The notes under the pieces are model-generated. The model was not told the origin of the DNA and did no database searches. It worked only from the letters and a program-made list of their open reading frames with translations. Shown here piece after piece: positions 4,637-23,766 of a DNA stretch of 64,000 nt; positions within the stretch are counted from its first letter, which is position 1; the number at the start of each line of letters is the position of its first letter. This DNA is from Leptolyngbya ohadii IS1 (GTDB taxonomy: Bacteria; Cyanobacteriota; Cyanobacteriia; Elainellales; Elainellaceae): NCBI RefSeq assembly GCF_002215035.1, contig NZ_NKFP01000006.1, positions 1,562,530 to 1,626,529 of the forward strand, written 5' to 3'. The translations under genes were made by a program, and so were the position numbers.

Positions 4637-4722
4637 TCGGTTCAGTGACGGAAAAAATATGCAGTGGCAGAGCTTTGACCCCATGAAGCTCTTCATCTGC
4701 TGGTTAGGTGGAGGGAGAGGTG

Positions 4723-5919: not shown

Positions 5920-5939
5920 AGTAGCACGAAGGAGACTGT

Positions 5940-6185: not shown

Positions 6186-6243
6186 TGTGCAAGGCAAACT
6201 ACTCAGGCTCAAGGCGTTCCTGTCTACGTACTCGCAACTTGAG

Positions 6244-9173: not shown

Positions 9174-9554
9174 CTAGTTTGCAATTGTGATAAAATCCTC
9201 GCTGCTTTTGATGTTTGGAGTGGCAGCCAAATAACCAATTCCTCGATGCAAGTGGAGACGAAACTGTGTTGCTAACGTTTCAACATCTAGGTTTAAGTGA
9301 TCCGTATAGCAACGTTGCTTGAGAGCAATAATAAGCAGATCCGCAATCTCTCCTCCGAACACCTGCCAAGTCATCTCCACGTTACTATCGGCAGGAATGG
9401 CTACTGGCGAAGGAGGGGTAGGTTCTGCCAAGGAACGGCAGAATGCCCAGCGGCAGAGAATATTCCATTGGTCAATTTTAGTGACGCGCTTAAGTTTGAT
9501 CAACTGATCCTTGGCAGCTTGAGAAATACGAACTCGATCGACAGGGGGTTCCAT
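9174..9554 (-). CDS. dndE: DNA phosphorothioation protein DndE
   Basis: 126 aa, the usual size for DndE. The family opening is clear: VDRVRISQAAKDQLIKLKR followed by WNILCRWAFCRSLAEP, then VFGGEIADLL and HLHRGIGYLA. DndE is a small helical protein that binds nicked DNA and is needed with DndC and DndD to exchange a non-bridging phosphate oxygen for sulfur in the DNA backbone. The ATG lies 5 bp after the dndD stop, so it is the last gene of the dndB-(125 aa)-C-D-E operon. SPARDA genes follow on the same strand. Confidence 0.93.
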   Translation of the reverse strand: MEPPVDRVRISQAAKDQLIKLKRVTKIDQWNILCRWAFCRSLAEPTPPSPVAIPADSNVEMTWQVFGGEIADLLIIALKQRCYTDHLNLDVETLATQFRLHLHRGIGYLAATPNIKSSEDFITIAN

Positions 9555-9559
9555 AGTCT

Positions 9560-11521
9560 TTACCAGAAATAACCGGGTTTTACTCGTGTTTGGTGCTCGG
9601 TGCGATCGTACTTAAGCAAGTATTCACGCGCGATCGCCCTATTCTCCCGCAACCGCTTTACCTCTGCCTTACCAATCTCAGTGTCCGTCGAGAGGAGCAG
9701 TACTTGATGGCTGGCTTGTGGAAAGTAGCGATCGACCAGATTATTGCGGTGAGAGGAGTCAAGCCGCCCCAGAGGAGTATCGATCGCCACAGGCAATTGC
9801 CGACCAGAGGCACGAGCCAATCCCCACAGTAAGGAGATTGCTAGTAGCTGCTTCTCTCCAGCAGACAGCCGATGTTTAGGGACAGGCTGCCCCTCATAAT
9901 CAAACAGCGAGAGGCTAAAGGTTTCGGTGTCGATTTGGACGCGATGCACCAAGTTTGACTTGTGCAGTAAGTAAAGGAAGCACTCTGTCACCAGAGCCTC
10001 AAGCTGATTGAGCTTGCGGAGTTTCAGCTTCTGCTTAAACACTTTAAGAGTGTCCTGAACTTTCGCGATCGCCGCCAGGGTATGCTCATCGTTTTTTCGG
10101 TCGATCGCCAGCTTGCCATAGTCCATCAGTTCTTGCCTGGTACGAGCAATAGCTTGTTCCATTTGCTCAAGAAGACGGTGGCTTTGTTCCCGGTCAGCTT
10201 TGAGGGTTACGACTTCTGTTTGTGCCTGGCGTACCTGCTGCACTAACTTGTCGTACATTTCTGGAGGGGCGGCAGTCGCCAAGTAGCGTTCAATCGTCTC
10301 AATTTCCTCCTGGCAAATCTCAAGCTGTTCTAGTTCCTCTGCTGCCACCCGCTGTTGATGTGGTAAGGCATATTGCAGTGTGTTGGTTAGTTGGTGTAAC
10401 GTCTCTGCGTCCGAGCCGAGCCAGGAATCACCCACATTCTGTGAAATCTCCTTGTCTTGCTTTGCTAGGAACGATCGGATTTGCTTAAGCTGTTTTGCCT
10501 CTAAATCCAGCGATTTAACAAACTGGAGCAGGTTCTCGCTGCGTTCCTTCAACAACTCCCTGGCAACCTCTAACTGTTGCTGCCGAATCTCTTGTTGAGC
10601 CTGGACTTCCGCCTGTTGAAGCAAGGGCTGAATTAAGGCGAGAGGCAAAACTCCGCCTGCCATCTCTCGTAGGGCAGCACGATGAGCATCGGCTTTATTC
10701 CTTGCCTGCTGTAACTGTTGCTCCTGTTGGGTTTTCTCTGCCGCAATCTTGCCGCCCTCAGACAGAAAACGTTCTTCCGCCTGCCGCAATTTCTCCTCTG
10801 CCTTGTCCAGTTTGGGCTGAATCGCGGCAATCTTCTTTTTGATCGACAGCCGCTCCCGTTCTTGAGCTTCCAATCGCTGCTCAATCTCCGATAATTTTGC
10901 CTGGTCTTGAGCCGTTGCAAGGGCTTTACGTTTGCGAGAGGTCAGCACATCGAGATCGGCAGCGAGGCGATCGGGCAATTCGAGTCCCAGCAGCGATCGG
11001 ATCGCCGTTGTGACGGATTGGGGCAGAGTATCCTGATCCGCTAATTCACCGACCTGCTCACCATCGAACAGGAACAAGCGAGAAATACCCAGAGGCAGTA
11101 AGTCCTCAATGCGCTCGTCCCATTTTTTGGCTAGGTCCAGGGCATCCTCACCGTTCTCTTGAATTCGTAGGATGTCTCGATTACTGATCTGCTGATTCCA
11201 GGTGCGATAGATCCTAAATTCTGTCGGTCGCGCCTCGTTGTTCAGAGTTTGCCGGAAAACTAATTCAATTGAGGCATCTTGCGCCTGTCGATTAATGCAC
11301 TGCTTAAGAAAGTCCGAATAGCTGAGGTTCCCGCGCGTGGAACAGGGGGCACGGTGTCCATAGAGTGCCAGACGGATTGCATCCATCAGGGTTGTTTTGC
11401 CACCTCCATTCATACCGCCAAACAGGATAATGGTTTGCTGGCTCTCACCGGGGCGCAGATCGAAAGCCTGCCGTCCCTTGTAGGGACCGAAGTTTTCCAA
11501 CACTAATTCTTGAAAAATCAT
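9560..11521 (-). CDS. dndD: DNA phosphorothioation ATPase DndD (SMC/RecF-like)
   Basis: 653 aa. The N-terminal ATPase half has MIFQELVLENFGPYKGRQAF and Walker A GGMNGGGKTT at about 35-44. A long coiled-coil middle rich in E, Q, K and R runs from about 190 to 520. The C-terminal half has the ABC signature LSAGEKQLLAISLLWG and Walker B LPVAIDTPLGRLD. DndD is the ATPase of the sulfur-modification complex with DndC and DndE. I chose the ATG at 11521, not the upstream 11551 codon, because it overlaps the dndC stop as ATGA and begins exactly at the conserved MIFQELVLENFG start. It is probably translationally coupled to dndC. Confidence 0.93.
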   Translation of the reverse strand: MIFQELVLENFGPYKGRQAFDLRPGESQQTIILFGGMNGGGKTTLMDAIRLALYGHRAPCSTRGNLSYSDFLKQCINRQAQDASIELVFRQTLNNEARPTEFRIYRTWNQQISNRDILRIQENGEDALDLAKKWDERIEDLLPLGISRLFLFDGEQVGELADQDTLPQSVTTAIRSLLGLELPDRLAADLDVLTSRKRKALATAQDQAKLSEIEQRLEAQERERLSIKKKIAAIQPKLDKAEEKLRQAEERFLSEGGKIAAEKTQQEQQLQQARNKADAHRAALREMAGGVLPLALIQPLLQQAEVQAQQEIRQQQLEVARELLKERSENLLQFVKSLDLEAKQLKQIRSFLAKQDKEISQNVGDSWLGSDAETLHQLTNTLQYALPHQQRVAAEELEQLEICQEEIETIERYLATAAPPEMYDKLVQQVRQAQTEVVTLKADREQSHRLLEQMEQAIARTRQELMDYGKLAIDRKNDEHTLAAIAKVQDTLKVFKQKLKLRKLNQLEALVTECFLYLLHKSNLVHRVQIDTETFSLSLFDYEGQPVPKHRLSAGEKQLLAISLLWGLARASGRQLPVAIDTPLGRLDSSHRNNLVDRYFPQASHQVLLLSTDTEIGKAEVKRLRENRAIAREYLLKYDRTEHQTRVKPGYFW

Positions 11522-13080
11522 CCCCGTCCCTTGAATTTCATATCTGCCCAAGACACCGCTGGCTGATCGGTTAACTGTTTGACAGCTTCTACATCTCCAG
11601 CTTTGGCGGCTTTTTTAATGTTCCAATTTCGGTGGGCGTTTTCGATCGCCGCCTCCTTAGGACGGGAACTGGTTTCAAAGTGCTTTTCAAGGGCATCAAT
11701 AATGCCGACCCGCCGCGACATCGTTTGAAATTTGCGCTCCGTGCTGAGGAGCCGCGTCATCAGTTCAAAATGCATCGGGTCGTCGCAGATTTCTTCCAGA
11801 ATGCTCCACTCATCCAATCCGAGATAAGTACTGCCAGCATTCGGGCGGGGATCGATAAAGTCTTGTCCTGTCACCTGGGAGTAGATTCTGGGTAAAGCAT
11901 CGTCAAACTCATGAAACTCCTCCAGCCAAATGCGGCGAATTTCGCTCAGTTCTTCAACTGTAATTAGCTCGATACCCTGCATCTCAATCGGTGCATTTTG
12001 ACGAGCCTCCGTCTGCGTTTGCAGCACTCGCCGCAACCATTCCTCCCGCCACTGCTTTGTGTAGGGACCCGGAATATTGACAATCTCTTTGGCATCCAGC
12101 CCTTCCACATCGCGCTCGTAAAGCTGGATTTGTCCCTGTCGCCGCCGAAAATCACGGCGATCGAGGTCGTCTTCTACGTCTAGTTCGTTCCGCAGATCCA
12201 GAAGCGGTTGCATCCACTCTTTCTCCTCATCGTTCTGGATCATGGCTTCCATCGATTTGTCTGCGCTCACTAAAGTACAGACCCAGCAACCGAAGCGGGA
12301 GCTACCGCAGCTTGGGGTAGAGGTATCAACAACCAGAGGACACTCGTTATCTGCTGTTGCGCCCCGGTACATGGCAAACAACTCTTTGTTGTTATTGCCC
12401 CAGGGGTTCTGCCATTGCATCAGGTAGAGCCAAACTTCATCGGTGCGCCAGTCTTCGATCGGAGTATAGATCAGGGAATTTGGGCGACTGGGATTGTAAT
12501 TGAGGTGCGAGAAGACGCGCCAGTTGCGGTGTTTCTCCATCAGGGCAGCCCGCGATGCGCTCTCAGCCTTGCGCGTTCCCAGAACCAAGATTACTTCACC
12601 GCTTTCCCGGATTTTTTCCCGAATATAGTTATCCGAGGGTCGGATTTTGAGCCGTTCAGTACACCAACGAAAACCCTGTCTTGGGGCTGGATAACCCTTA
12701 CCAATCAAATTGACCCAAAAGCTGTCTTTCACAGCAGGTTTTAGCAAAATCGGTTCGATGGGAATACCCTGCTCCTGAGCAACTCTGCCCATTTGCTCTA
12801 ATGATCGGCTAACCCATGCAGACACAACCGGGTTTTCAACCATCGTGTCTGTGGTAATGACATGAATGGTTTTCTTGCGCTTTTCGACTGGGAGAGCCGC
12901 GATCGCATCCCACACTAGCTGAAGTATCGCTGTCGAATCTTTGCCGCCAGAATAGCCCACAATCCAGGGCAATTGGTCCTGGCAGTACAGTTCTTGAATT
13001 TCGGTCGTAAGAGCTTTCAAAGTCTCGACAAATTCAGGAACCGATCGTTGAGAGCTTTCTAATTCAACTGCTTCAGTCAT
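11518..13080 (-). CDS. dndC: DNA phosphorothioation sulfurtransferase DndC
   Basis: 520 aa. The PP-loop GYSGGKDST is at about 42-50. VITTDTMVENPVV, GFRWCTERLKI and LVLGTRKAES follow, and then the cysteine cluster STPSCGSSRFGCWVC that carries the 4Fe-4S cluster in DndC. The long C-terminal helical part (VNIPGPYTKQWREEWL and onward) is DndC-specific. It is the ATP-pyrophosphatase of the sulfur-incorporation complex and takes sulfur from a cysteine desulfurase (DndA, or a host IscS; neither is encoded here). I prefer the ATG at 13080 to the GTG at 13089 because AGGGTGAG sits at good spacing before it. The stop overlaps the dndD start. Confidence 0.94.
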   Translation of the reverse strand: MTEAVELESSQRSVPEFVETLKALTTEIQELYCQDQLPWIVGYSGGKDSTAILQLVWDAIAALPVEKRKKTIHVITTDTMVENPVVSAWVSRSLEQMGRVAQEQGIPIEPILLKPAVKDSFWVNLIGKGYPAPRQGFRWCTERLKIRPSDNYIREKIRESGEVILVLGTRKAESASRAALMEKHRNWRVFSHLNYNPSRPNSLIYTPIEDWRTDEVWLYLMQWQNPWGNNNKELFAMYRGATADNECPLVVDTSTPSCGSSRFGCWVCTLVSADKSMEAMIQNDEEKEWMQPLLDLRNELDVEDDLDRRDFRRRQGQIQLYERDVEGLDAKEIVNIPGPYTKQWREEWLRRVLQTQTEARQNAPIEMQGIELITVEELSEIRRIWLEEFHEFDDALPRIYSQVTGQDFIDPRPNAGSTYLGLDEWSILEEICDDPMHFELMTRLLSTERKFQTMSRRVGIIDALEKHFETSSRPKEAAIENAHRNWNIKKAAKAGDVEAVKQLTDQPAVSWADMKFKGRG

Positions 13081-13128
13081 CACACTCACCCTAAGTAAAA
13101 CCCAGTCAACACCCTTGCAATACTTAGA

Positions 13129-13506
13129 CTACTCAGCTTCGCCCTGCTCCAACCGCCTGTAGGTTTCCAACATCTGATGCAGAATCTCCCGTTCTGAGGT
13201 TAAATTCATGGCTTCGACAACCTCCCGCGCCCGCATCACTCGTTGTACTAACTGATCGGATTCCTGTTCCACTGCCTCCTGGTTCTTGGCATAGGCAAGA
13301 ACAACGCCCATCTCGTCGGCAAATCGCTGAAGTTGTTTGGGCGAATAATGCGTCACTCCAAACCCGTAGCATTCCTGCTTCTCGGTCGATGTCCCCACGT
13401 CATACTCCCATTCCTCGATATTCACATCGTTAGCCTGGACTGCTGTCATGAATTGCTGGGCTTCCTTTGCGGTGTCAGAAACAATCTGAAACTCAAACAT
13501 GGGCAT
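13129..13506 (-). CDS. Uncharacterised 125-aa protein inserted between dndB and dndC
   Basis: I do not recognise this protein. It starts MPMFEFQIVSDTAKEAQQFM, has a central acidic strand (NIEEWEYDVG), a YSPKQLQRFADEMGV segment and an all-helical C-terminal third (VMRAREVVEAMNL onward). There is no membrane segment and no obvious catalytic motif. A strong GGGGAGG lies before the ATG, inside the end of dndB; the dndB stop is only 2 bp away, so it is part of the operon. Its position suggests an accessory subunit or regulator of the sulfur-modification complex, by context only. Confidence 0.75.
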   Translation of the reverse strand: MPMFEFQIVSDTAKEAQQFMTAVQANDVNIEEWEYDVGTSTEKQECYGFGVTHYSPKQLQRFADEMGVVLAYAKNQEAVEQESDQLVQRVMRAREVVEAMNLTSEREILHQMLETYRRLEQGEAE

Positions 13507-13508
13507 GG

Positions 13509-14585
13509 CTACCTCCCCGCTAGAGCATACGCTTTTTCTAACCGTTCCTCCTCCGCTGTCATTGGCAACTTCATTGCCTTCTTGAGATATGCCGTCATGA
13601 AGGACACGCAGGTTCTTGACTTAGAAAGCCGCCCCCCGAACATGACTCGACCTTCCCAATCAGGATTAGAGCGTGACCAATCTATTTTCCGTAGAGCTTT
13701 TAGCTGGGCTTCCCACTTCTCCGGATGGGTCGATAGTAAAACTGCCCCCGCTCCTCCCATGCCCGCTAACGTAACTGCGTGGCTGTGAATGTATTCTCGG
13801 CGAATTTCGCCAGGACTGACCTTCTTATCAAATACCTGCTGCCAGTCTGGAATATTGCTGCTCACCGCTCTCCAGAAGCGGACGCTAATCTCAACCTGCT
13901 TCTCTATCTCTGCGTCCCTGTGATTCACCAGAAGTGCTTGAGTGGCATTGTAGATACTACTCAGCGTAAACAGCTTGCTGGAACGGACTGGCAGGTTGCT
14001 TCGTTCCATATCAGTAAGCCTGTCGAAAATTTTGACCTCTTTAACCAGCGACTTTGACAAAATTGCTTTTCGGTCGCGGCTGTCATACAGAATATTCAGC
14101 GAGGGATCAGGGTGAACCGCGTAACGGTTCAAATCCGTAAACATCTGCTGCGATCGCTTCAACCCGATGTCTAAAAAGAAAACGACAGCGATCGTCTCGT
14201 CCCCCAGATCGGGGTTTTCTTTCAAGGCTTGTTCAAAGGCAGCACGCCGATGCTGTCCGTCATTTATTACAAACCGAGCATCCATCGGAACGGTTAGCTT
14301 ACCAATGTCTTCTGAACCGAACGGCTCAAAGGTAATGTCGGCATTGATAGAGACAGTAATTGCCGAGAAAACGTAGTCCGCCGGATTATTCACAATGTAG
14401 CGAGCGATCTCAGGGACACGGCTCCGATTAAGAATTCGTTGCGCTCGCATTTCAGGCGGAATTTCCTCGTCGTCAAACGAGAAAATCTTTGGAATCAGCC
14501 TCACAGGACACATCGAGACATAATACTCGCGCCCTGCCTGGATTCCTCTAATCGCTGGAAAAACGTACTCGAATGGGAGAGCCAT
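13509..14585 (-). CDS. dndB: DNA phosphorothioation regulator DndB (DGQHR domain)
   Basis: 358 aa. It carries the family signature DGQHR at 109-113 (FVINDGQHRRAAFEQAL), preceded by EMRAQRILNRSRVPEIARYI and followed by VVFFLDIGLKRSQQMFTDLNR, all typical of DndB. DndB-type proteins are reported as negative regulators of dnd transcription and as modulators of how much DNA becomes sulfur-modified; they are not strictly needed for modification. It is the first gene of the operon. The promoter must lie in the 210-bp gap toward the divergent AIPR gene, where a pair of GTATGTTA boxes is present, so autoregulation is plausible. Confidence 0.92.
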   Translation of the reverse strand: MALPFEYVFPAIRGIQAGREYYVSMCPVRLIPKIFSFDDEEIPPEMRAQRILNRSRVPEIARYIVNNPADYVFSAITVSINADITFEPFGSEDIGKLTVPMDARFVINDGQHRRAAFEQALKENPDLGDETIAVVFFLDIGLKRSQQMFTDLNRYAVHPDPSLNILYDSRDRKAILSKSLVKEVKIFDRLTDMERSNLPVRSSKLFTLSSIYNATQALLVNHRDAEIEKQVEISVRFWRAVSSNIPDWQQVFDKKVSPGEIRREYIHSHAVTLAGMGGAGAVLLSTHPEKWEAQLKALRKIDWSRSNPDWEGRVMFGGRLSKSRTCVSFMTAYLKKAMKLPMTAEEERLEKAYALAGR

Positions 14586-14660: not shown

Positions 14661-14795
14661 AAAGTAAATCCTCAGCATAGACTTGTCACTTCCCCAGAAG
14701 AAGTGCTAGTCTCTATTTGGCACCGACATAAATTGTCAGCGCCATTAAAAATCGCAGCGGAGAGTTTCCACTGCACTATCCTGAGGAAAAACCAA

Positions 14796-16034
14796 ATGAA
14801 TGAATTCAACTTTTCTCTTCCCACGGAAGAGTATCGCTCGTTGCCTGTGCCTTTCGGTGATTCTGCAATCCGAAAGCTTCAGTTGGCAACTTTTTTTGTG
14901 CCTGTTGATTCGCTTCCAGACGAGCTTAGAGACTGGATGGAAGTTAATCCTCGTGTCCCTCGATTCAACAAGAAGGACCAATTGTCGGGGGTTGTTGCAA
15001 AAGAAATTGTGAGAACTCTAAAAGAAGACCCTGAAAAGTTTGCCCTAAAGAATCAGGGAATTTATGTAATTGCAGAGGATGCAGAGTTCAAGAAAGAGTC
15101 TGGTGGGCAAGGTTGGGTTCATATCAGGCTTAGCGACCCGAAAAAGCACGGTGTTGTAAATGGTGGACATACTTTTCGTGCTATTCGAGAAGTTGCAGAG
15201 GATGAAGAGCGTCCTGATCCTTGGACAGCCTACGTTCGGATGCATATCTTTAAAGCTGATAATCCAGACGCAGCTTTGATCGCAGAAATGGCAGAAGGCT
15301 TGAACCGTTCCTTACAAGTTGATGATCCAAGTCTTGAAAACCTCCGTGGGTCCTTCGACAGGATTAAGAAGCAGCTTTCTGGCAAACAGGGTGAGCAGCA
15401 AATTGCTTACCGTCAGGGTGATTCGGGAGACATTGATGTACAGCAGGTTATTACGTACATGAGTATGCTTAACCTTAATGAGTTTCCTGATCGCAAGAAA
15501 CATCCGTACACTCTCTTTGGTCAACCCAAATCTGTGCTGCAATCTTTCATTGAGGAAATCAATAAGGAGAATTCTGCTTTCGATTTAATCCTGCCGCGCC
15601 TGCATGAGATCCTAGTCTTGACAGATCGAATTCAGATGTTGACGGCTCCAAGCTTTGGAAAAATCAAGATTAGCAATGCTAAGAAAAACAATCGTGTTGG
15701 TTCTGCAACAAAGAAAAAAATTCCAGCCTATTTTGCAGGAGGCAACATTGGTGGAGATGTACCTCTCGGTTTCCTGTACCCAATGCTAGCTGCCTTTAGA
15801 GCCAATATTTCCCACTCAGCTTGGCAAGCAGGGAAATTTGAATGGCTTACTGATCCCAACGATCTCCTGAAGGCGACCTACGAGGAGATGGCGCAGATCA
15901 TCAAGCAGGAGTATGAGGACAATAATAGGAAGCCTGCTGAGGTTGGGCGCAAGGAAGCAGCCTATAGAGGTTGCTACACAGTCGTAACTTTGGAACTTGC
16001 TCATAAAGGGGTACTTCAGCCAGCAGAGATGTAG
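14796..16034 (+). CDS. AIPR family (abortive infection phage resistance) protein
   Basis: 412 aa. It matches the AIPR core: NQGIYVIAEDAEF, then VVNGGHTFRAIRE, then AEMAEGLNRSLQVDDPSLENLRGSF and IAYRQGDSGDIDVQQVITYMSMLN. AIPR proteins come from abortive-infection phage-resistance loci; the biochemical activity of this branch is unclear to me. I chose the ATG at 14796 (MNEFNFSLP) over the GTG at 14703, because GAGG lies 9 bp before it and the upstream 31 residues look non-native. The gene is divergent from dndB, shares its regulatory gap, and ends in a strong terminator. An XRE regulator follows on the same strand. Confidence 0.8.
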   Translation: MNEFNFSLPTEEYRSLPVPFGDSAIRKLQLATFFVPVDSLPDELRDWMEVNPRVPRFNKKDQLSGVVAKEIVRTLKEDPEKFALKNQGIYVIAEDAEFKKESGGQGWVHIRLSDPKKHGVVNGGHTFRAIREVAEDEERPDPWTAYVRMHIFKADNPDAALIAEMAEGLNRSLQVDDPSLENLRGSFDRIKKQLSGKQGEQQIAYRQGDSGDIDVQQVITYMSMLNLNEFPDRKKHPYTLFGQPKSVLQSFIEEINKENSAFDLILPRLHEILVLTDRIQMLTAPSFGKIKISNAKKNNRVGSATKKKIPAYFAGGNIGGDVPLGFLYPMLAAFRANISHSAWQAGKFEWLTDPNDLLKATYEEMAQIIKQEYEDNNRKPAEVGRKEAAYRGCYTVVTLELAHKGVLQPAEM

Positions 16035-16064
16035 TTGATCTAATCCATACCTTCAATTAAACGG

Positions 16065-16103
16065 GGTTCAAACTGGTCTAGAGTTTGAACCTCTTTTTCT
16101 TTT
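16065..16103 (+). terminator. Rho-independent terminator after the AIPR gene
   Basis: A perfect 10-bp stem (GGTTCAAACT pairing with AGTTTGAACC) around a 7-nt loop is followed directly by the T-rich run TCTTTTTCTTTT. It starts 30 bp after the AIPR stop codon and separates that gene from the XRE regulator. Confidence 0.85.
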
Positions 16104-16271
16104 GAGCAGTCCATGTGTGCAATACAAGAGTTGCGAATGTGATTGAGTCCTCCCAAACAAACTGTCTGCATACAACCTACTAGCAAGCTAACAATCCCTA
16201 TCTTAGTAGACTATCTGGTATACGTCAACCAGTAGGTGTACTTTCGTGACTTATCATCCTCTGCCACTATC

Positions 16272-16526
16272 ATGGGCATGGGAAAAGCCGGTAGAGTGCT
16301 CAAGCAAATTCTGGAAATGTACGACATCACCCAGTACAGCCTTGCTGCTGCACTGAAAACTGAGCGTACCAATGTTTACCGTTGGGTTCATGAACAGAGA
16401 GACCCAACGGCAGATAAAGTCGTTGATATCGTTGCAGCCCTTAGAAAACTTAATCCAGAAGCAGCAAGGGAATTTGTCGAGCTCTACTTAGGCGATGTAG
16501 CTCAAGGTAATCAGGATGGAGAGTAG
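16272..16526 (+). CDS. XRE-family helix-turn-helix regulator
   Basis: About 84 aa, essentially one lambda-repressor-like HTH: GRVLKQILEMYDITQYSLAAALKTERTNVYRWVHEQRDPTADKVVDIVAALRKLNP, with helices 2-3 at YSLAAALKTERTNVYRW. A short acidic tail follows. The reading frame could start at a GTG at 16236, but MGMGKAGRV is the usual beginning of such proteins, so ATG 16272 (or 16278) is preferred; no clear Shine-Dalgarno sequence is visible. It lies between AIPR and the convergent five-gene operon and is a candidate regulator of the defence island. Confidence 0.75.
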   Translation: MGMGKAGRVLKQILEMYDITQYSLAAALKTERTNVYRWVHEQRDPTADKVVDIVAALRKLNPEAAREFVELYLGDVAQGNQDGE

Positions 16527-16533
16527 TAAATCC

Positions 16534-17031
16534 TCAACTCCCTTTCCAATTTGGATTTTGGGCTACTGCGCCCCTTAATAATCTTGCATAGGTTCTGAGG
16601 AATTCTTCCACATGGTAGGGCTTTGAGTCGAGCTTCTCCGCCAGGTAGTCGTAGCCGCCGCTGGAGTACTCATTGAGTCTGTCCATGCCTGAGTCGGTCA
16701 AATTAGTCGGGTTTTGGGGATTCACCAGATCGACAAAGAGTTTGCGGACTTCATCCTTTTCGGTCACACTTACCCCCAAACGGGAAAGCTCCGCCCTGAT
16801 CAGCAAACCAATAATCAACCTCTGGTAGGGTTTATAGTCACTGACGAAGTTATCTGTAAAATCCGTAACTTCAGGACAGTGCTTGGTCGGTTCGCTTCTA
16901 CGGTTCGCTGCCAACCCAAGCATGAGGCAGAAATAGTAGAGATCGAATTTCGTTCGGATTGGCTTCTGGTCTCGAATGTTAGAAAACCAGTTTTCGGCAT
17001 CCTGTCGCATCCGAAAGTTTTTGAACGCCAT
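16534..17031 (-). CDS. 165-aa Dnd-island protein (possibly a dnd system-associated protein)
   Basis: No motif with a known catalytic role is seen. It is a mostly helical protein beginning MAFKNFRMRQDAENWFSNI, with FDLYYFCLMLGLAANRRSEP and GLLIRAELSRLGV segments. The style recalls the small dnd system-associated proteins that sit beside phosphorothioate restriction genes, but I cannot confirm the family. The start lies 5 bp after the SMC-like ATPase stop and it is the last gene of the 21544-to-16534 operon. It converges on the XRE gene with a 7-bp gap. Most likely it is a structural partner of the ATPase/helicase complex; this is context-based. Confidence 0.7.
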   Translation of the reverse strand: MAFKNFRMRQDAENWFSNIRDQKPIRTKFDLYYFCLMLGLAANRRSEPTKHCPEVTDFTDNFVSDYKPYQRLIIGLLIRAELSRLGVSVTEKDEVRKLFVDLVNPQNPTNLTDSGMDRLNEYSSGGYDYLAEKLDSKPYHVEEFLRTYARLLRGAVAQNPNWKGS

Positions 17032-17036
17032 AATTT

Positions 17037-19010
17037 CTAGCCCTCTGCCTCGTTCAAATCAAAGTGGTCGAAATATTCCTTGCCCTCCACTAAAACGGCA
17101 TTCGGTGTTTTCTGCACCCCTGTCTTAGGCAGTGATCGCACTAATGCCTCAGTGCCCGGCGTTTTCCTAAATACGGTCAGAAATTTCGTCGTATTTCCAG
17201 AACTGGTATGGATCACATCTGTGAACCCAGCCCGCTCCGATGAGATTGTGAAAGCCACGAACTGCTTGCACAGGCTTGGAATTAGCTTGGCAATTTCTCG
17301 TCGCACTTCCATCGAGAGCGGGTTTGCCGGACTGTCCACAATTAGCGGAAATTGATGCTGTCCCCGGCTTAAAAGGGTCGTCAGGAAGGTGTAGCCTACT
17401 GACAGAGTTTGACCGACGCTGGCTCCCTCCTGGTTCAGCAGATTGAGAGAGCGATCGATTTTCTCAATCCGAATGGGGTCACGCGACAGCACCTTTTCCA
17501 GGCGTTGATTGCATTCCTCTGCGATCGCCACCCGTAAATTCGCCTGAGCTTTTTTTAGGGCTTGCTCTGCGATCGTTTGTAAAACATCGGTTTTGGCTCG
17601 AAGCTCCAGCGTCCCTGTAATTTCTGCCAGATCGTCGCCTGCTTCCTTCAACTGTTTCTTGAGGGATGCTAAACAGAAAGTTTTTTCGTCGTCACTGGAG
17701 CTTGCAGCCCGATTGGTGTCCCTAAGAAAATTTTCTAGCTCCTGTTTGCGTTTGATTTTGCGATCGCGCTCCTCAGTCCACGCTCTCAACTCGTCGTCAC
17801 CCTGATCGATGAGTTCCTGCTCTAGTGCCCTAACAGCCGTGTCCGCCAATTTATTTGCCGTGACCGCTTCTTCAAGCTGCTCTAATTTCTGGGTTAAATC
17901 TGCCGCTGTTTCATTGCCGCCCTGCCGCACCTGAACATCAATATCTTGCTTCAGAGCATTCAAAATACCCGACGTATCCTCAGCAAGGTAAAGTTCGCGC
18001 CGTTTGCCAATGACCTCACGGGAATGATGATCCAGAGGGCGACCACAGATGCACTCATTCTCCTCCAGAAGCTCATTAAAAAATTGGCTGGAGGTGCTGG
18101 CAGGCAATCGCAGACGGTCTAGCTGAAGCTTCAGTTTGTTCAGCGATTGGGCAAAAGCCTCATGCAATAAATGCGGCTGTCGCATTCGGGTCATGACCTC
18201 TGAGGCTGCTAGTTCAACCTGATTACGCGCATCGCGTGCCTCCTCCTTTTTCGTATCAAATTCCTCCCGAAGGCTTTGCTCAGCCCCAATCTGCTCGCTA
18301 ATTTTCTGCTCCAGTATGTCTAATTCGGGCTTGAGAAGGTCTAACTCTGCGCTCGCTTTATCCCGCGCCTCTTTTACCTGAGCGATGCGGGCTTTTAGGG
18401 CTTCAACTTTTTTCCTGCGCTGACTCAGCCCCTTCTCAGCCTTGGCAGTTTTATTTTTGGTTGCTTTCTCCCAGGCATCTTCTGCAATTTTGTGAATGTC
18501 TTGCAGCAGGTAGAGTTGGAATAATGCGTCGATCGCCTTCGATGCCTCAGACTCACTGGAGTCCAGCAGCTTGTCGGCAAACTCACCGTCAAATACAAAC
18601 AATTGGACAAATCGGCTGTCCAGAAATCGCTTTACTTGGGGTGGTGGCTCCCAGCCCGGTTTGATGCCCCCGCTACCCACGGAGGTCGTTCGATATTCGG
18701 CTTTTCCCGTATCAAAATTGAGCGTCAGTTCAAATGTCAGAGGTTGATCGTCAACTCTCAGGTGCAAAATAAACTTGCCCTCTGAATGGGATTCCCCAGG
18801 ACGACGCAAACCCCTAATTTTGTCTGAACTCCACTCATGAGCCTTGCCGGTCATCGCGGCTCGAATCATCGTCAGAGTTGTGGTTTTGCCCGTGCCATTT
18901 GGCATTTGAATTAGGGACACAGGCGCAATCCTGTCACCTGTCCTCAAATCAATTTCAACATCGGGACAGCGCAACCCCTCGCTGCTCCAGCCTGCTAACT
19001 CAATCCTCAT
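17037..19010 (-). CDS. SMC/RecN-like ATPase of the putative phosphorothioate-restriction operon
   Basis: 657 aa. The N-terminal lobe begins MRIELAGWSSEGLRCPDVEIDL with Walker A IQMPNGTGKTTTL at about 36-46. Long coiled coils flank a hinge-like NECICGRPLDHHS segment with a C-x-C pair, reminiscent of a zinc-hook motif. The C-terminal lobe has GASVGQTLSVGYTFLTTLL (signature-like) and FPLIVDSPANPLS (Walker B). Its design parallels DndD, but the sequence is clearly different. The coding start overlaps the end of the 68-aa gene by 11 bp, so the two are coupled. Beside a PLD-nuclease/helicase it is likely to sense or move along DNA in restriction of unmodified DNA. The ATPase call is firm, the role inferred. 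Confidence 0.8.
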   Translation of the reverse strand: MRIELAGWSSEGLRCPDVEIDLRTGDRIAPVSLIQMPNGTGKTTTLTMIRAAMTGKAHEWSSDKIRGLRRPGESHSEGKFILHLRVDDQPLTFELTLNFDTGKAEYRTTSVGSGGIKPGWEPPPQVKRFLDSRFVQLFVFDGEFADKLLDSSESEASKAIDALFQLYLLQDIHKIAEDAWEKATKNKTAKAEKGLSQRRKKVEALKARIAQVKEARDKASAELDLLKPELDILEQKISEQIGAEQSLREEFDTKKEEARDARNQVELAASEVMTRMRQPHLLHEAFAQSLNKLKLQLDRLRLPASTSSQFFNELLEENECICGRPLDHHSREVIGKRRELYLAEDTSGILNALKQDIDVQVRQGGNETAADLTQKLEQLEEAVTANKLADTAVRALEQELIDQGDDELRAWTEERDRKIKRKQELENFLRDTNRAASSSDDEKTFCLASLKKQLKEAGDDLAEITGTLELRAKTDVLQTIAEQALKKAQANLRVAIAEECNQRLEKVLSRDPIRIEKIDRSLNLLNQEGASVGQTLSVGYTFLTTLLSRGQHQFPLIVDSPANPLSMEVRREIAKLIPSLCKQFVAFTISSERAGFTDVIHTSSGNTTKFLTVFRKTPGTEALVRSLPKTGVQKTPNAVLVEGKEYFDHFDLNEAEG

Positions 19011-19206
19011 CGCTGCCCCCAGCTATGTTAACGGTAATTGCTGATCGGACGTTTTCCAGATATTCCTGTTCATCGCTCGCACTGAGTTCGGATGTGCTCA
19101 TCGCGTTCAGCCATGCCTCAATCCGCTTGGCAACTTTTGGGGGCTGCTCTGCCTCGCTCACTGCTTCTTGAATCGCCTTGATCACTTCGCGATCTAAACT
19201 GGACAT
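19000..19206 (-). CDS. Small 68-aa protein between helicase and ATPase
   Basis: Not recognised. It is an acidic, helical protein, MSSLDREVIKAIQEAVSEAEQ, then AKRIEAWLNAMSTSEL and YLENVRSAITV. It begins 2 bp after the helicase stop and its end overlaps the ATPase start by 11 bp, which strongly supports it being a real, translationally coupled gene despite its size. A bridging subunit or adaptor between helicase and ATPase is possible. Confidence 0.7.
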   Translation of the reverse strand: MSSLDREVIKAIQEAVSEAEQPPKVAKRIEAWLNAMSTSELSASDEQEYLENVRSAITVNIAGGSDED

Positions 19207-19208
19207 TT

Positions 19209-21212
19209 TTACTCCATCCTCCTGATTTGAGCGAGTTCAGACAGCCAAATGCAGCGATCGTCATCGGCATTAAACTCACCCTCGTCATCCTCTGCCGATC
19301 GCACAAAATCAATAACCGTCGCCCGTTTAGCAGGAAAATTAGGATCAGAGCGCAGACATCGCCCAATCCGCTGAATCGTTTCCAGGCGTGCCCGTGCCGA
19401 CGAAAATAAAATGACATTTTTTAGATTTCGGATATCAATTCCCTGCGAAATTCGGTGGCAGGTGATCAGGCAATCAATTTTGCCCCTTGAAAAATCGATT
19501 AAATTACGGCGATCGTCCTCCGCATAATAAGTCCGGTAGCGATGGGTGTAATGCTGCAATATTTCTAGGATCGGCTCTCCGTAAGCTCTATCCTCCACAA
19601 ATAAAATGGCAGACTCAATAATGTGAGAGTTTTTTTGCAGAAATTCAGCGAAAATTTCTGGCTTTTTCTCAGCCGTTTTATAAACCCGCGCAAGCTCTGT
19701 CCACAATTCTTGCTTGGTCATGGGTTTGCCCTCCCGCTGCCGTGCCGAGCGTTTCGCGTAGACCTGCCGCAGCCTTTGGCGATCGCCATCTGTGAGGGAG
19801 TATGCTAGCGGCACATAATCAAACTCACACAAAATTCCCCGCTCGATCGCTTCTTGCAAGCCGAACTGGAAAAAGACTCCGCCAATTTCAGCAAATATAA
19901 ATTGCGTGCCTTCCTGGTCATACTCCCGTTCCGGTGTCGCGCTCAAACCCAGACGATAGCCAAACGCCTGATGCTGCCCTGCTAATTGCGATCGCAGCGA
20001 CGGGCTTCCCAAGCCATGCACCTCGTCATGAATAATAATCAGCCGCTCTTTTTGATCGGGGTCGAGGCGGTTAAATAGGGAAGCCAGTTGTTCGCGAGAA
20101 ATAACCAGGACAGCCCGCTTTGGATTTAATGCAAAATCGCCCAGTTCGTGATGTTGGGCAAAATGCCTGAGGACTCGATATGGCTGGGGACGCCTGACTG
20201 CCCAGAATTCAATTTCCTTGCGCCATTGATCCAATAAATCGGTGCCGTCAGTGCTGATAATAATTCCGTTAATCTGTCCCTGTTCGTCCAGGGCGGTCAG
20301 GACTTTAATCGCAGTGCGCGTTTTACCTGTGCCCGTCGCCATTTCCAAAACCCCATGCTTTACCGCCAAAAATCGCGCAACCGCTTCATCCTGATGTCGC
20401 CATTTACGATCGCCCTGCTCTTGTCCATAAGCGGCAGCCTTTTCCTTGACAGCAGGCGGAGTAATTTCAGCGTTAAGGGTGTTGAGCGGTTTTTCTAACG
20501 GAGCTTTATTCCGGATTAATGCTGCCAGTTCGGGCGATAAAGGCAGAACCCTCAGCCCATCCGCCTTTCCTGACCATGCCTCCTCGAATTCTTCGACCTT
20601 TGTCGTGACGCGATCTGCATCCTGATCAATCCAACTGCGGTACACGTCGATCGACTCATAATTCCGCTCATACCCATGCTCAGACTCGTTTGCTGACCCC
20701 GTAAATGCAACGCGATCGCCCCAGGAAAATTGGAAAACGCCAATTTTGGTATGAAAAATTGCAGGGCGCTCTACATGCTCCGGAAAAGCGAATTTTAGAA
20801 CCAGGTGGTCATTTGCCACCATCCAGGTAAATAACCTGACTTGCACAGACTCGCTAGCGGTCGATTCGTCTAAAAGCTCTTGAATTAGGCGATCGGCTGC
20901 AATCTGCCTCAGCTTCTGCCTTTCCACTTCATCCATTGCTTTTTCGAGCGCCGCCCGATCTTCCGTCGAAAGCTCCGGAGAAATAAGCAAATAAATTCTA
21001 ATAGAGTCTGTCGCAAAGCGTGGTAACGCTTCCAGCCACGCCATTAGAGCCTTGCTCGAAAAATAGCCCACGGCACGTTGGTATCCGGTGCAGTATTTTA
21101 GGCAGGGGGAAAAGAAGTCTCTGCCCAGGCTATTTCTGCCACTGCGGTAATGGCTCAACAACCCTCGTATTGCGCTTTGTCCCTCTAAATCATTAATAAG
21201 TTCCCCTGCCAT
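19209..21212 (-). CDS. Phosphorothioation-system restriction enzyme: PLD nuclease fused to SF2 helicase
   Basis: 667 aa. The N-terminus (about 1-230) is a phospholipase-D-type nuclease, with the HxK motif IFHTKIGVFQF followed by AFTGSANES (H-x-K...G-S-x-N). Residues about 260-667 are a superfamily 2 helicase: RKWRHQDEAVARFL (Q-like), Walker A MATGTGKTRTAI, DEVH box IIHDEVHGLGSP, motif III LSATPERE, and motif VI IQRIGRCLR. This architecture corresponds to the family named the DNA phosphorothioation system restriction enzyme. DptF/G/H-type proteins are not in the window, so this is the probable nuclease that attacks DNA lacking sulfur marks. It is the second gene of the operon, 5 bp after the winged-helix gene. 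Confidence 0.87.
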   Translation of the reverse strand: MAGELINDLEGQSAIRGLLSHYRSGRNSLGRDFFSPCLKYCTGYQRAVGYFSSKALMAWLEALPRFATDSIRIYLLISPELSTEDRAALEKAMDEVERQKLRQIAADRLIQELLDESTASESVQVRLFTWMVANDHLVLKFAFPEHVERPAIFHTKIGVFQFSWGDRVAFTGSANESEHGYERNYESIDVYRSWIDQDADRVTTKVEEFEEAWSGKADGLRVLPLSPELAALIRNKAPLEKPLNTLNAEITPPAVKEKAAAYGQEQGDRKWRHQDEAVARFLAVKHGVLEMATGTGKTRTAIKVLTALDEQGQINGIIISTDGTDLLDQWRKEIEFWAVRRPQPYRVLRHFAQHHELGDFALNPKRAVLVISREQLASLFNRLDPDQKERLIIIHDEVHGLGSPSLRSQLAGQHQAFGYRLGLSATPEREYDQEGTQFIFAEIGGVFFQFGLQEAIERGILCEFDYVPLAYSLTDGDRQRLRQVYAKRSARQREGKPMTKQELWTELARVYKTAEKKPEIFAEFLQKNSHIIESAILFVEDRAYGEPILEILQHYTHRYRTYYAEDDRRNLIDFSRGKIDCLITCHRISQGIDIRNLKNVILFSSARARLETIQRIGRCLRSDPNFPAKRATVIDFVRSAEDDEGEFNADDDRCIWLSELAQIRRME

Positions 21213-21217
21213 ACGTG

Positions 21218-21544
21218 CTACTCTCCAGGAGAATTTATTAACGACTTTAGAGTGTCCTCAAGGGCAGCCTCCTGCTGGAATTGTTTGTGCTGCATTATTA
21301 GCTCGTCTAAGGGCGACCTTAGGGACACCTCAAAAGGGATTAAAAGCTGCTCGCAATTCTCCTGTGAAACTGATTTCAACATCCACCTGTACTGGGAGTC
21401 CTGCACAACAAGTCCGCTTAGGGACGTGTAGAGATAGCAATTTACCTCTCGACGTGACACGTTGAGAGCTTTGGCAATGTCGCCAGCCCGAAGTGGAACG
21501 CCCTGCTTTAGCACGTTAACAATCCCAATTTCAGTTTGATTCAT
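21218..21544 (-). CDS. Winged-helix protein, first gene of the restriction operon
   Basis: 108 aa. Residues about 1-65 form a winged helix: EIGIVNVLKQGVPLRAGDIAKALNVSRREVNCYLYTSLSGLVVQDSQYRWML, with recognition helix SRREVNCYLYTSL and a wing ending in YRWML. The rest (SPLDELIMQHKQFQQEAALEDTL) is helical. It could be an autoregulator or the DNA-binding subunit of the nuclease complex. It is followed after 5 bp by the PLD-helicase. The promoter must lie in the 166-bp gap 21545-21710, which also covers the 3' end of the upstream region; I see no clear boxes there. Confidence 0.75.
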   Translation of the reverse strand: MNQTEIGIVNVLKQGVPLRAGDIAKALNVSRREVNCYLYTSLSGLVVQDSQYRWMLKSVSQENCEQLLIPFEVSLRSPLDELIMQHKQFQQEAALEDTLKSLINSPGE

Positions 21545-21710: not shown

Positions 21711-22037
21711 TCAGCTTTTCTCGCTCCAGAGCAGGAAAACGCGCTGATCAAACCCGCCTCGCTCAAGCCTCCGCTGTTCCTGCATGTCGATCACGCTGGA
21801 TTTCTCGATATTGTGAGCGGTTAACAGGGCGTCGATCACCTCATACAGGTCAGCTATTTCCGAAATTAACTCAGCAGAACTGGCAGTTGCAGCTTCCTGC
21901 GCCTCTTCAACTAGCTTGCTGCGAAGGGCTTGATAATACTCCTCTTCAGGGAGCGTCTTGACCTCGCACTGTCCCCCCGTTGCACGAATAATTTCAGGGA
22001 TGCGATCGCGCACCAGCTTGCGGTAATTCAATTTCAC
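21711..22037 (-). CDS. MazG-like nucleoside triphosphate pyrophosphohydrolase
   Basis: 108 aa. It has the all-alpha NTP pyrophosphohydrolase pattern: YRKLVRDRIPEIIRATGG at the start, EEYYQALRSKLVEEAQEA with the paired Glu residues of the metal site, ELISEIADLYEVIDALL with E-x-x-D for the second helix pair, and a final RGGFDQRVFLL. Such enzymes hydrolyse NTPs or dNTPs to monophosphates, for house-cleaning or in phage-response settings. The start is GTG with a strong GGAGG 8 bp upstream. It lies at the edge of the defence island on the same strand as the restriction operon, 166 bp before it. Confidence 0.85.
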   Translation of the reverse strand: MKLNYRKLVRDRIPEIIRATGGQCEVKTLPEEEYYQALRSKLVEEAQEAATASSAELISEIADLYEVIDALLTAHNIEKSSVIDMQEQRRLERGGFDQRVFLLWSEKS

Positions 22038-22146
22038 CCAGGAATCCTCCGCAATAGCCCAGTATGTTTATTAATTCTGCCCTGAAAGTCCTTGTCAGAC
22101 AGCATTTCGAGCGTTATTGAGAGTGGTAACGCGAAGGCACTTCTCT

Positions 22147-22221
22147 GGTGCTCAATTTTCATATATCTTGAGATATATGAAAATTGAGCACCTCCGGCAA
22201 AACTTTAATATCTCAAGATAT
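22147..22221. repeat. Perfect 46-bp palindrome and a related smaller palindrome
   Basis: 22147-22192 has 22-bp arms that match perfectly around a 2-nt TG centre. A second, shorter copy of the core (ATATCT-CA-AGATAT) is at 22208-22221, in the opposite orientation and centred 45 bp further on. Both lie in the roughly 300-bp gap between the divergent MazG-like and recombinase-like genes. They could be operators, recombinase binding sites or a strong hairpin. The gap shows no other feature. Confidence 0.7.
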
Positions 22222-22335
22222 CTGAAATAAAATGTTGAATAGCTCGCCCTCCATCGGTGAGCTAAAAACACGAGCCGCTCTGCATCAGAGGGTTGTTAAT
22301 GCCAGCAGCTTCACCAGGAGAGTCTGCGTCATATT

Positions 22336-23766
22336 ATGCTGCCAGAAAATGTTTTAGATGCATATCAGCAATTTGCTCAGGCGTGTGATGGTCAGGCTAG
22401 CCCTCGCTTGATTCCAAACCTCAGAACGGCTCTAAGGGTCTGCATCCTGCCTCAGCACGGTATGTTACCTTCTGCCCCAAAGCAGGACTTAGAAGATTGT
22501 CTGGCTCAAATTTCGCTGGATAAATTCGTCAAAGATACAGAACAATTCGTTAGTCAGCCTTTAGACTCTGAAGCTTGGCAGAAATATCTGCAAGGAGTCT
22601 CGCAGGGAACTATCCAAAACTACCGCTCAGTTCTGTCGCGATTTCTGCGTTGGATAAACAAATACATCATCCATCCTGATAAGGCTGAAAACACCATTGC
22701 AATTTATGCCCCTGAGATGCCGAGTGGGCGATCTCGTGAAAAAGTACAAACAAAAACTAATCTCATCCCTTACGCTGTGCAGGAGAAGGAGTTGCCCGAT
22801 AAGTTAAGGCAACAGCTAGAACAGCTTCAGGATTTCTGGATTAACCCATGTCATCCTCAACGCAAAGAGAAGGCTCTTGAGGAGTTAACTTTCAAAACGT
22901 ACAAAAAACTGTTACTGAGCTACTTAGGCTGGCTAAGGAATGTCCAGCATAGCAATCTAGAAACGGTAGATCTCGTTGCTCTAGCCAACTCGCAACAGTT
23001 AGAGAAGTTTGTTACATGGGGCGTTGATTGCAGAAATAATACCTATGGATGGGCACTACAGGTTGCTCAGGCAGTGGTTCTCATAGCTAAAGGCAACTCC
23101 CAAAACTTGGTTGCTCAGACAGAGGATTTGATGCGCGATTTGCGGCTGAAGGCTCGGCATGAACAACTCACACGTAAATCAGAACAGATCCAGACGTTAG
23201 AGTTTGAGGAGTGTGTAGAGATTCTGAATTACCTTAGACAATGCTGTGCAAGTCGTAACCATTCTGGCGATAAGAGGTCTGAGCTAGCAATCCTTAGGTC
23301 TTGGCAGCGGTACTTGATGATTGCACTGTTGACCTACTGCCCAATACGGCAGCGTGAGATCGCGCTACTAGATTTGTCTGAGTCTGTATCTAAGCAGGAA
23401 TGTGGAGAACTTGCTCTCATCGTTCAGCGTGCTGCTAGACATCAAACTAAAACACTTCAATATGCACTACCACAGCAGTTGTCAAAGGATTTGCAGGTGT
23501 GGATTGATGAATGGCGACCTAAAGTAATCACTGAGCATAACCGAATTTTTATTCGGCTGGGATCTAACCGCACTCCCGAAAGCTTAGGTCAGCCTTTAAC
23601 CGATCGCGATATCAGCGAGACGATTTCTGTCGCTTTGCGTAGTGCCACGGCTGCACTACTTGGTGCTCCCTTGGAAATAAATGCACAAGCAATGCATCAC
23701 TCTATGAGTCGCCATCTGTCTCAAATAGGATTTTCTTCAGATAAACAGCCTGCTGAAATCCTCTAG
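22336..23766 (+). CDS. Tyrosine-recombinase-like protein lacking a visible catalytic Tyr
   Basis: 476 aa. An N-terminal SAM-like core-binding region (SEAWQKYLQGVSQGTIQNYRSVLSRFLRWI) is followed by a catalytic-domain-like half. This has the Arg box YCPIRQREIALLDL and an HxxR-like HHSMSRHL near the end. The protein stops 15 residues after that Arg, with no Tyr, where active enzymes continue to the nucleophile. Frames after the stop did not show me an obvious continuation. It may be a truncated integrase, or a Tyr-less protein adapted to regulation or target choice. It is the first gene of the plus-strand mobile block and is preceded by the 46-bp palindrome. Confidence 0.6.
   Translation: MLPENVLDAYQQFAQACDGQASPRLIPNLRTALRVCILPQHGMLPSAPKQDLEDCLAQISLDKFVKDTEQFVSQPLDSEAWQKYLQGVSQGTIQNYRSVLSRFLRWINKYIIHPDKAENTIAIYAPEMPSGRSREKVQTKTNLIPYAVQEKELPDKLRQQLEQLQDFWINPCHPQRKEKALEELTFKTYKKLLLSYLGWLRNVQHSNLETVDLVALANSQQLEKFVTWGVDCRNNTYGWALQVAQAVVLIAKGNSQNLVAQTEDLMRDLRLKARHEQLTRKSEQIQTLEFEECVEILNYLRQCCASRNHSGDKRSELAILRSWQRYLMIALLTYCPIRQREIALLDLSESVSKQECGELALIVQRAARHQTKTLQYALPQQLSKDLQVWIDEWRPKVITEHNRIFIRLGSNRTPESLGQPLTDRDISETISVALRSATAALLGAPLEINAQAMHHSMSRHLSQIGFSSDKQPAEIL

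Follow-up and report, generated by a model that had tools for sequence, protein, structure and literature searches.

A PbeABCD cassette beside dndBCDE in Leptolyngbya ohadii IS1, headed by a gene for a winged-helix protein with a Z-alpha tetrad

The PbeABCD cassette and its dnd neighbours

The pbe genes of Haloterrigena jeotgali protect only in conjunction with phosphorothioate (PT)-modified DNA, and virus that itself carries the PT mark is spared (Xiong 2019, PMC6459918). According to the portion of that paper drawn on here, protection depends absolutely on pbeB, pbeC and pbeD and in part on pbeA, pbeABCD is harmless in the absence of the PT genes, and a catalytic mutant of DndA loses protection, so that protection needs PT itself. 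The CxC ABC-ATPase or DndE-anchored systems, as set out in the accessible parts of Rakesh 2024 (PMC10853773), combine an enzyme having HKD and superfamily 2 (SF2) helicase domains, a disordered small protein, a CxC ATPase and a DndE cognate, and occur in tandem with a DndD system. We describe here an operon of five genes at positions 16534-21544 of a 64,000-nt stretch of DNA (the window) from the 7.9-Mb genome of Leptolyngbya ohadii IS1, which is assembled in 8 contigs. The last four of these genes are the published PbeABCD cassette, alias CxC ABC-ATPase system. The novel element is the fifth gene, which heads the operon and encodes a winged helix bearing the tetrad of Z-alpha domains.

The five open reading frames (Table 1) lie head to tail on the minus strand and encode proteins of 108, 667, 68, 657 and 165 aa, with spacings along the operon of 5 bp, 2 bp, an 11-bp overlap between pbeB and pbeC, and 5 bp. 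This tight packing had been recognised in a sequence-only reading of the same DNA, which proposed a PT-dependent restriction machine of five genes; the link to PT and defence is right and well supported, but it was already known, and the cassette comprises four genes rather than five. PbeA matches the PADLOC PbeA model at E 1e-263, and its Pfam ResIII and Helicase_C domains score above cut-off, with PLDc_2 at 25.9 bits, just below the cut-off of 27. The same reading had likened the helicase architecture to the family DNA phosphorothioation system restriction enzyme (TIGR04095). The sequence does match that model, at 169 bits, but the cut-off is 600, so membership was rejected. Nor is the 68-aa protein without an assigned function as had been supposed, since it belongs to the Sp-CxC family (E 5e-18; 65 bits against a cut-off of 27.5), which Pfam describes as the small protein of certain CxC ATPase-based DNA modification systems; the view that it is essential agrees with the requirement for its counterpart pbeB in H. 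jeotgali. The "SMC-like ATPase" can be refined to a CxC-clade ABC ATPase, which matches the PADLOC PbeC models. The 165-aa protein is DndE-like by predicted fold, as discussed below.

Gene order, domains and the adjoining dnd PT genes are shared with the PbeABCD of Xiong 2019, so far as the consulted text goes, and the printed sizes of PbeB and PbeD, 66 and 152 aa, are near those of the window (68 and 165 aa). The window differs in the additional Z-alpha-like gene that heads its operon; in having dndB and no match to a desulfurase (dndA), of which seven desulfurase-like matches are found in the genome and zero within the window; and in the separation of its pbe and dnd modules by an AIPR/helix-turn-helix (HTH) gene pair. 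Downstream of pbeD follow this pair on the opposite strand, then dndB, a 125-aa gene, dndC, dndD and dndE, the four dnd genes lying about 2 to 7.4 kb past pbeD on the same strand as the operon. Likewise, a Z-alpha-like subunit is not mentioned in the parts of PMC10853773 consulted. The A-B-C-D order of the last four genes recurs in loci whose PbeA is 35-78% identical to that of the window, which argues that the arrangement is not due to chance. Two named relatives were found, Lyngbya sp. HA4199-MV5 (L004) and Cyanothece sp. BG0011 (L005), whose PbeA proteins are 78% and 57% identical, respectively, to that of the window. The same order occurs next to dnd genes on plasmids from two Rhizobium, from Priestia megaterium and from Halorubrum trapanicum CBA1232, the last of which is named among PbeAC carriers in Xiong 2019. 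A scan for promoters and terminators found 11 and 11, respectively, compared with 7.7 and 9.6 in shuffled sequence, and no clear operator was seen on alignment of the upstream DNA with that of Lyngbya.

The association with dnd genes was assessed in 386 genomes of the phylum, counting PbeA-like matches at E up to 1e-30 and DndC matches above the model's own cut-off. PbeA-like matches were found in 21 genomes and DndC in 94; dndC is present in 14 of the 21 PbeA-like genomes and in 80 of the 365 others (one-sided Fisher p 3e-5, or p 8e-5 once the window's genome is removed). The association is therefore real, yet not obligate. The PbeA-like match reaches the PLD domain in 14 of the 21 genomes (two of them broken, G105 and G296), eight of which have dndC, and is limited to the helicase half in the other seven (that of G367 being cut by a contig end), six of which have dndC. 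The distance between the two genes is countable only when both are on one contig, and on this basis dndC lies within 20 kb of the PbeA-like match in at least four of the 21 genomes (G000, G116, G193, G197). Two of our own observations weigh against the two working together: the enrichment of dndC is weaker in the PLD-reaching set (p 0.018, with dndC in 7 of 13 once the window's genome is set aside), and Cyanothece carries pbeABCD with no dnd gene found in 22 kb, the sole DndD match there being PbeC itself. In the consulted part of Xiong 2019, dndCD lies within 10 kb for 233 of 553 pbeAC and is lacking there for 320. The suggestion that the operon always travels with dndCDE thus fails on both the printed counts and those obtained here; taken literally, the printed numbers would even place the family mostly apart from dndCDE, which the sequence-only reading had named as fatal to its proposal, though the proposal stands for the window, with its dndBCDE. 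DndFGH is likewise a restriction partner of the dnd PT genes and can adjoin pbeABCD, as on the Priestia plasmid. Homologues of dptF and dptG were not found in the window's genome, which is weak evidence since the queries came from that one Priestia plasmid with no positive control, and dptH was not sought.

The gene at the head of the operon

In Lyngbya, too, a winged-helix gene, 58% identical to that of the window, stands 5 bp upstream of pbeA. This is the case in one of the 28 other PbeA-family loci, a count in which L027 has no upstream DNA, its contig ending inside pbeA, and in which the start of pbeA is broken in L051 and L059. Elsewhere the neighbour within 150 bp upstream of pbeA is a desulfurase-like gene, dnd_assoc_4, a sigma-factor-like gene, some other gene, or none. 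The sigma factor-like HTH proteins encoded upstream of pbeA in Rhizobium and Ruegeria may perhaps play a comparable part to the head gene. A single conserved machine of five genes, as first proposed, was accordingly rejected, and the head gene is best regarded as a lineage-specific accessory outside PbeABCD.

Z-alpha domains are marked by the tetrad N-L-Y-W (Herbert 2024, PMC11293857, consulted in part). In the window protein the corresponding residues are N35, L38, Y39 and W54, and in an alignment of 12 family members N, L and W are kept in all 12 rows and Y in nine. The only invariant columns are A24, N35, L38 and W54, so that three of the four are tetrad positions. Profiles built from different subsets of this NLYW family were searched against 177,635 PDB sequences. 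With five cyanobacterial rows (A8), seven of the eight sequences at E < 0.1 were Z-alpha; with seven rows (A9), Z-alpha appeared from E 2e-5 and accounted for 14 of the 15 sequences under E 0.05; and with all twelve rows (A10), from which L079 was excluded for its broken frame, Z-alpha took the first nine places, from E 3e-8. Retrieval of the divergent A10 rows relied on similarity to the NLYW domain, which favours its conserved motif. A profile of seven proteobacterial rows and zero cyanobacterial ones (A12) likewise gave Z-alpha in the first nine places, from E 4e-7. Chains were counted as Z-alpha by molecule name and entry title, and in part because we take them to be such. The control, a single profile of four rows (A11) made from the winged helix of the HTH partner protein in the same loci, retrieved 25 sequences at E up to 1, zero of them Z-alpha, in a list led by MarR-family and IclR regulators.

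The likeness to the Z-alpha domains of ADAR1, ZBP1, PKZ, E3 and ORF112, so far as these are covered by the consulted text of PMC11293857, lies in the N-L-Y-W tetrad, the predicted winged-helix core and the best PDB profile matches. The window protein differs from them in being bacterial and in having a shorter wing, of 15 residues from Y to W against 18 in ADAR1 and free of proline. It differs also from the bacterial ArsR examples given there, in which Arg replaces Asn, whereas the NLYW family keeps Asn. On this sequence evidence, common descent with Z-alpha, or at least a shared recognition motif, is likely, and it is possible that the 108-aa protein senses Z-form nucleic acid.

Several observations weigh against a Z-alpha assignment. 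The top match of A8, at E 1e-4, is PscE, which is not Z-alpha, and other non-Z-alpha chains reach E 1e-4 with A9, 3e-4 with A10 and 2e-3 with A12, values which set the noise floor of these profiles. Y39 is replaced in three of the 12 rows, by His in L075 and L077 and by Ser in L076. The window protein alone gives no match to Pfam z-alpha, nor does any other protein of its genome, and the three relatives in genomes of family f6 match only at E 0.01-0.03. Over the 386 genomes, 47 have a z-alpha match (E up to 0.1), in 44 cases on other proteins, and the two genomes with a match above cut-off have it outside the NLYW family; with 44 of 47 matches on other proteins the Pfam model is evidently unselective, and the full tetrad was present in none of three such other proteins that were read (L081, L083, L084). 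On the A8 rows, the scores of the PF0610-like_N and AsnC-type HTH models are close to those of z-alpha. The fold does not separate the candidates either: residues 1-50 of the predicted model align with Lrp/AsnC at Z 6.4 and with Z-alpha at no more than 5.7, and the wing is modelled as a helix instead of strands (from a two-sequence alignment, mean predicted local distance difference test score (pLDDT) 75). Foldseek with the winged-helix model returned nothing at E < 0.001.

The most serious alternative is that the protein is a plain autoregulator of the operon, binding B-form DNA in the manner of MarR or Lrp, its likeness to Z-alpha reflecting remote shared ancestry or chance. We consider the odds of this to be about even. 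It would account for a winged-helix gene standing first in the operon, and it is consistent with the better Lrp/AsnC fit, with the silence of the window protein alone towards z-alpha, with the substitutions of Y39, and with the Pfam AsnC-type HTH model, which matches all five A8 rows compared with four of five for z-alpha (below cut-off where cut-offs are shown). Set against it, the profiles rank Z-alpha chains over every MarR, Lrp and ArsR chain in the PDB, and the plasmid relatives of the domain are not stand-alone regulators but parts of helicase-nuclease, HATPase-like and ZorC-like proteins.

The A10 profile, scanned over the open frames of 101 records, found the domain only in the window and its copies, in Lyngbya, in three f6 genomes and in plasmid loci fetched for it, with weak matches besides in L072 (E 7e-4) and in a 52-aa frame of the PbeA locus L059 (E 0.011). 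Over the 386 genomes, a search with the first 60 residues of the window protein found the domain in three further genomes, all of family f6 and 54-56% identical, and a profile search added two weak matches only. In the two f6 genomes that were read (L064 at 4896-7822, and L066), the NLYW winged helix is third in a three-gene operon after an HSDR_N-ParA fusion and a ParB-like gene, domains having been scanned in one of the two; the f6 protein has by eye a likely C-terminal membrane helix, and PADLOC matches of this operon are weak. Phage records gave no relative of the winged helix, and viral contigs gave none of either the winged helix or PbeA. Plasmids searched with the window's own domain gave none; the plasmid relatives came by way of the domains of L064, L073 and Lyngbya.

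On two Acinetobacter plasmids, read out of 21 matched, the NLYW domain forms the N-terminus of a 1576-aa helicase (AAA_11/AAA_12, REase_MTES_1575) encoded directly after brxL in a BREX-1 locus. It also forms the N-terminus of proteins of 360-390 aa, of which three out of four match HATPase_c below threshold; downstream of each of their genes comes one for an HTH or DNA-binding protein (Table 1). The winged-helix profile of this partner matches PDB entries 9z71-9z73, with best E 9e-34. The HATPase-like gene adjoins type I restriction-modification (RM) and SAVED/nucleotidyltransferase genes in Vibrio gigantis, has an HsdR gene at a distance of about 5 kb in V. atlanticus and adjoins multiubiquitin and ThiF genes in Citrobacter koseri; in A. 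johnsonii there is no evident defence gene alongside. On a further plasmid (L078), the domain lies at the C-terminal end of a ZorC-like protein with an EH_Signature, after which comes a helicase, with no annotated ZorA or ZorB in the 10-kb stretch. Independently, the C-terminal stretch of the PADLOC ZorC model (PDLC00623) matches the winged helix of Lyngbya (E 4.7e-8), L064 (6.5e-7) and the window (6e-6), the remainder of this 687-position EH-signature model being unrelated. NLYW relatives are therefore encoded within, or close to, BREX, ZorC-like, type I RM, CBASS and multiubiquitin genes.

Given these contexts, it may be suggested that the NLYW winged helix, at the head of PbeABCD and in the BREX-1 helicase-nuclease, ZorC-like and HATPase-like proteins, is a Z-alpha-type sensor in bacterial antiviral systems. 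It would recognise left-handed or strongly underwound nucleic acid made in phage replication and transcription, and recognition would serve to direct or activate the effector, in the manner of ZBP1 and PKZ in animals. This general proposal is speculative, and we rate it as improbable.

PbeA, PbeC, PbeD and a proposed mechanism

An alignment of PbeA comprising the window and 27 loci (16 of 43 matches being left out as partial, helicase-only or other helicases) shows no change in any of the 28 rows at the HxK, at the GSxN Ser and Asn or at the N.E that follows. The rows come from archaea and, among bacteria, from cyanobacteria, proteobacteria, Bacillota, an actinomycete and a chloroflexote. This invariance supports the presence in PbeA of an active phosphodiesterase site, and Rakesh 2024 argues, in the parts consulted, for cleavage by PbeA from its HKD/PLD domain. 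For the ATPases, rows were selected by genomic position, next to pbeA or within dnd operons, leaving 15 of 48 matches unused; CxC is present mid-chain in all 24 PbeC rows and in none of the 11 DndD rows. PbeB diverges fast, eight relatives being 13-79% identical to that of the window.

No credible family was found for the 165-aa protein nor, in Pfam or NCBIfam, for any of 11 PbeD rows; two Pfam models each matched a single row, at E 0.01-0.03. An AlphaFold2 model of PbeD from a 5-row alignment has a mean pLDDT of 83 and a predicted template-modelling score of 0.83. When the model was re-aligned with the top chains from Foldseek, DndE took ranks 1-3 (7x4e, Z 6.5, root-mean-square deviation 3.6 over 109 aligned; 4lrv, Z 5.6; 5wtu, Z 5.4), and the fourth entry reached only Z 2.1. 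PbeD is also related by profile to DNA phosphorothioation-associated protein 4 (dnd_assoc_4), at E 8e-6 in one comparison, and a merged profile of the two scored 26.2 against DndE, with a probability of 17%, where the best of 50 column shuffles scored 14.5; of several pairings tried, this alone gave a signal. Weighing against the assignment, Foldseek with the PbeD model alone returned nothing at E < 0.001, and the plain PbeD profile gave no signal with DndE (probability 0.3%). The predicted fold thus supports PbeD as a DndE cognate, with weak support from sequence.

The explanation that best fits these results, and one held with high confidence, is that this bacterial operon is an antiviral PbeABCD cassette that acts together with the adjoining dndBCDE, with the 108-aa protein as a lineage-specific accessory. 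Its basis in the window is the membership and order of the genes, the catalytic residues, the DndE fold of the PbeD model and the accessory status of the fifth gene; the scanning, loading and nicking steps set out next, and the role of the fifth gene, are inferred. DndCDE would write phosphorothioates into the host DNA, the sulphur probably being supplied by a cysteine desulfurase encoded elsewhere. PbeC, as an ABC ATPase with a CxC zinc hook, and PbeD, as its DndE-type DNA-binding partner, would scan DNA and read the PT mark, and on unmarked phage DNA would load PbeA, whose SF2 motor would translocate while the HxK phosphodiesterase site nicks or cuts, or the motor blocks replication. PbeB may be a small obligate linker or switch, and the 108-aa winged helix would bind nucleic acid and most probably serve the cassette as its sensor or regulator. 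PbeC and PbeD would in this way mirror DndD and DndE, one scanning pair serving to write and the other to read, with PbeA as the effector. That the fifth gene is known from two PbeA loci only gives its role here a slender basis, and for the nuclease step there is the contrary report, in the consulted part of Xiong 2019, of uncleaved viral DNA and of a pbeA that is only partly needed.

That report is the ground for an alternative in which PbeABCD clamps unmarked phage DNA and halts its replication without cutting, the PLD domain being structural. Viral DNA was intact even 6 h post infection, and partial protection remained without pbeA. The conservation of HxK...S.N...N.E in all 28 PbeA rows across phyla would be unexpected for a dead site, and the argument of Rakesh 2024 from the PLD domain is for cleavage; we regard clamping without cutting as possible, though on balance unlikely. 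The latter paper, in the part consulted, also puts forward a nuclease directed at host DNA, causing cell suicide, with PbeB as an inhibitor that is removed upon infection. The fast divergence of PbeB noted above would suit such a role, but it is hard to reconcile with the lack of toxicity of pbeABCD without the PT genes, or with the loss of pbeB, which ends protection with no toxicity mentioned in the consulted part of PMC6459918, unlike the loss of a simple inhibitor; cell suicide seems to us rather improbable. Finally, the operon might be a functionless remnant of a decaying island, given the adjoining integrase-like gene and the broken state of some related loci (pieces of pbeA in L028 and L038, with a piece of pbeD in the latter), from which it is clear that pbe cassettes do decay, but the nine listed pbe, dnd and head-gene frames are open and the catalytic motifs intact where checked, and this reading can be given very little credence.

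Neighbouring genes and wider significance

Table 1. Positions of the operon genes and of other features in the window, and of related two-gene modules in other loci
Feature	Position	Strand	Basis
NLYW winged-helix protein, 108 aa, operon head	21218..21544	-	Z-alpha-like domain at about residues 1-58 (N35, L38, Y39, W54); predicted helix 78-103
PbeA, PLD/HKD nuclease (H154, K156) and SF2 helicase, 667 aa	19209..21212	-	PADLOC PbeA, Pfam domains, motifs
PbeB, Sp-CxC small protein, 68 aa	19000..19206	-	PF20304, E 5.1e-18
PbeC, CxC-clade ABC ATPase, 657 aa	17037..19010	-	PADLOC PbeC, best E 2e-22; CIC at 320-322
PbeD, DndE-like protein, 165 aa	16534..17031	-	Model against DndE structures; profile link to dnd_assoc_4
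DndB	13509..14585	-	TIGR03233, E 1e-149, above cut-off
DndC sulfurtransferase	11518..13089	-	TIGR03183, E 8e-203, above cut-off
DndD	9560..11551	-	TIGR03185, E 6e-196, above cut-off
DndE	9174..9554	-	PF08870, E 9e-44; TIGR03184 above cut-off
AIPR protein and XRE-type HTH gene	14703..16526	+	PF10592, E 2e-24 (AIPR)
125-aa gene	13129..13506	-	No credible family
Putative methyltransferase, dnd-linked	1610..3727		TIGR04096
dnd-linked protein	3788..4534		No family
Second DndC-like sulfurtransferase	4708..5919		E 1e-39, below cut-off
dnd-linked protein	6244..7710		No family
DUF4365 protein, dnd-linked	7707..9059		
PRA-PH/MazG-like gene and integrase-like gene (22336..23766)	21711..23766		PRA-PH/MazG just below cut-off
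Two-gene module, NLYW-HATPase-like and DNA-binding protein	L075 6001-7669; L076 6001-7684; L077 5989-7648; L080 4001-5743		

The slot between pbeD and dndB holds the AIPR and XRE-type HTH genes in the window and, in Lyngbya, a DGQHR protein and a gene that is HNH-like by eye, a difference in contents which points to a possible exchange site. The XRE-type HTH gene of the window has relatives at 56-60% identity in two other loci with dnd genes (L034 at 2964-3221 and L035 at 4257-4475), which suggests a common dnd regulator. The 125-aa gene between dndB and dndC is 82% identical in Lyngbya, and L035 has a 75-aa relative (46%) immediately before its PbeA-family gene on the upstream side. On the other side, the operon is bordered by the PRA-PH/MazG-like and integrase-like genes, and Lyngbya has, upstream of its winged-helix gene, a small gene like the first of these and one that by eye is integrase-like; this common flank suggests that the operon and its Lyngbya counterpart are one mobile island.

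Among the papers listed in a literature search that covered few subscription journals, none was seen to tie a Z-alpha domain to an antiphage system, and the consulted part of a paper on ZorC (PMC11890865) mentions no such domain. A 2026 preprint on DRT3 (PMC13174585), in the part consulted, leaves open a Z-DNA role for its DNA product of alternating repeats, with ZBP1 as the animal parallel. The locus adds a full bacterial example of PbeABCD with dndBCDE, and gives independent support on two disputed points, the conserved PLD active site and the DndE nature of PbeD. With the fifth gene, the question of whether Z-form nucleic acid is sensed by any immune system of bacteria becomes testable, and the NLYW winged helix found in defence loci, a small protein, would be a concrete candidate for the reader of such a Z-form product.

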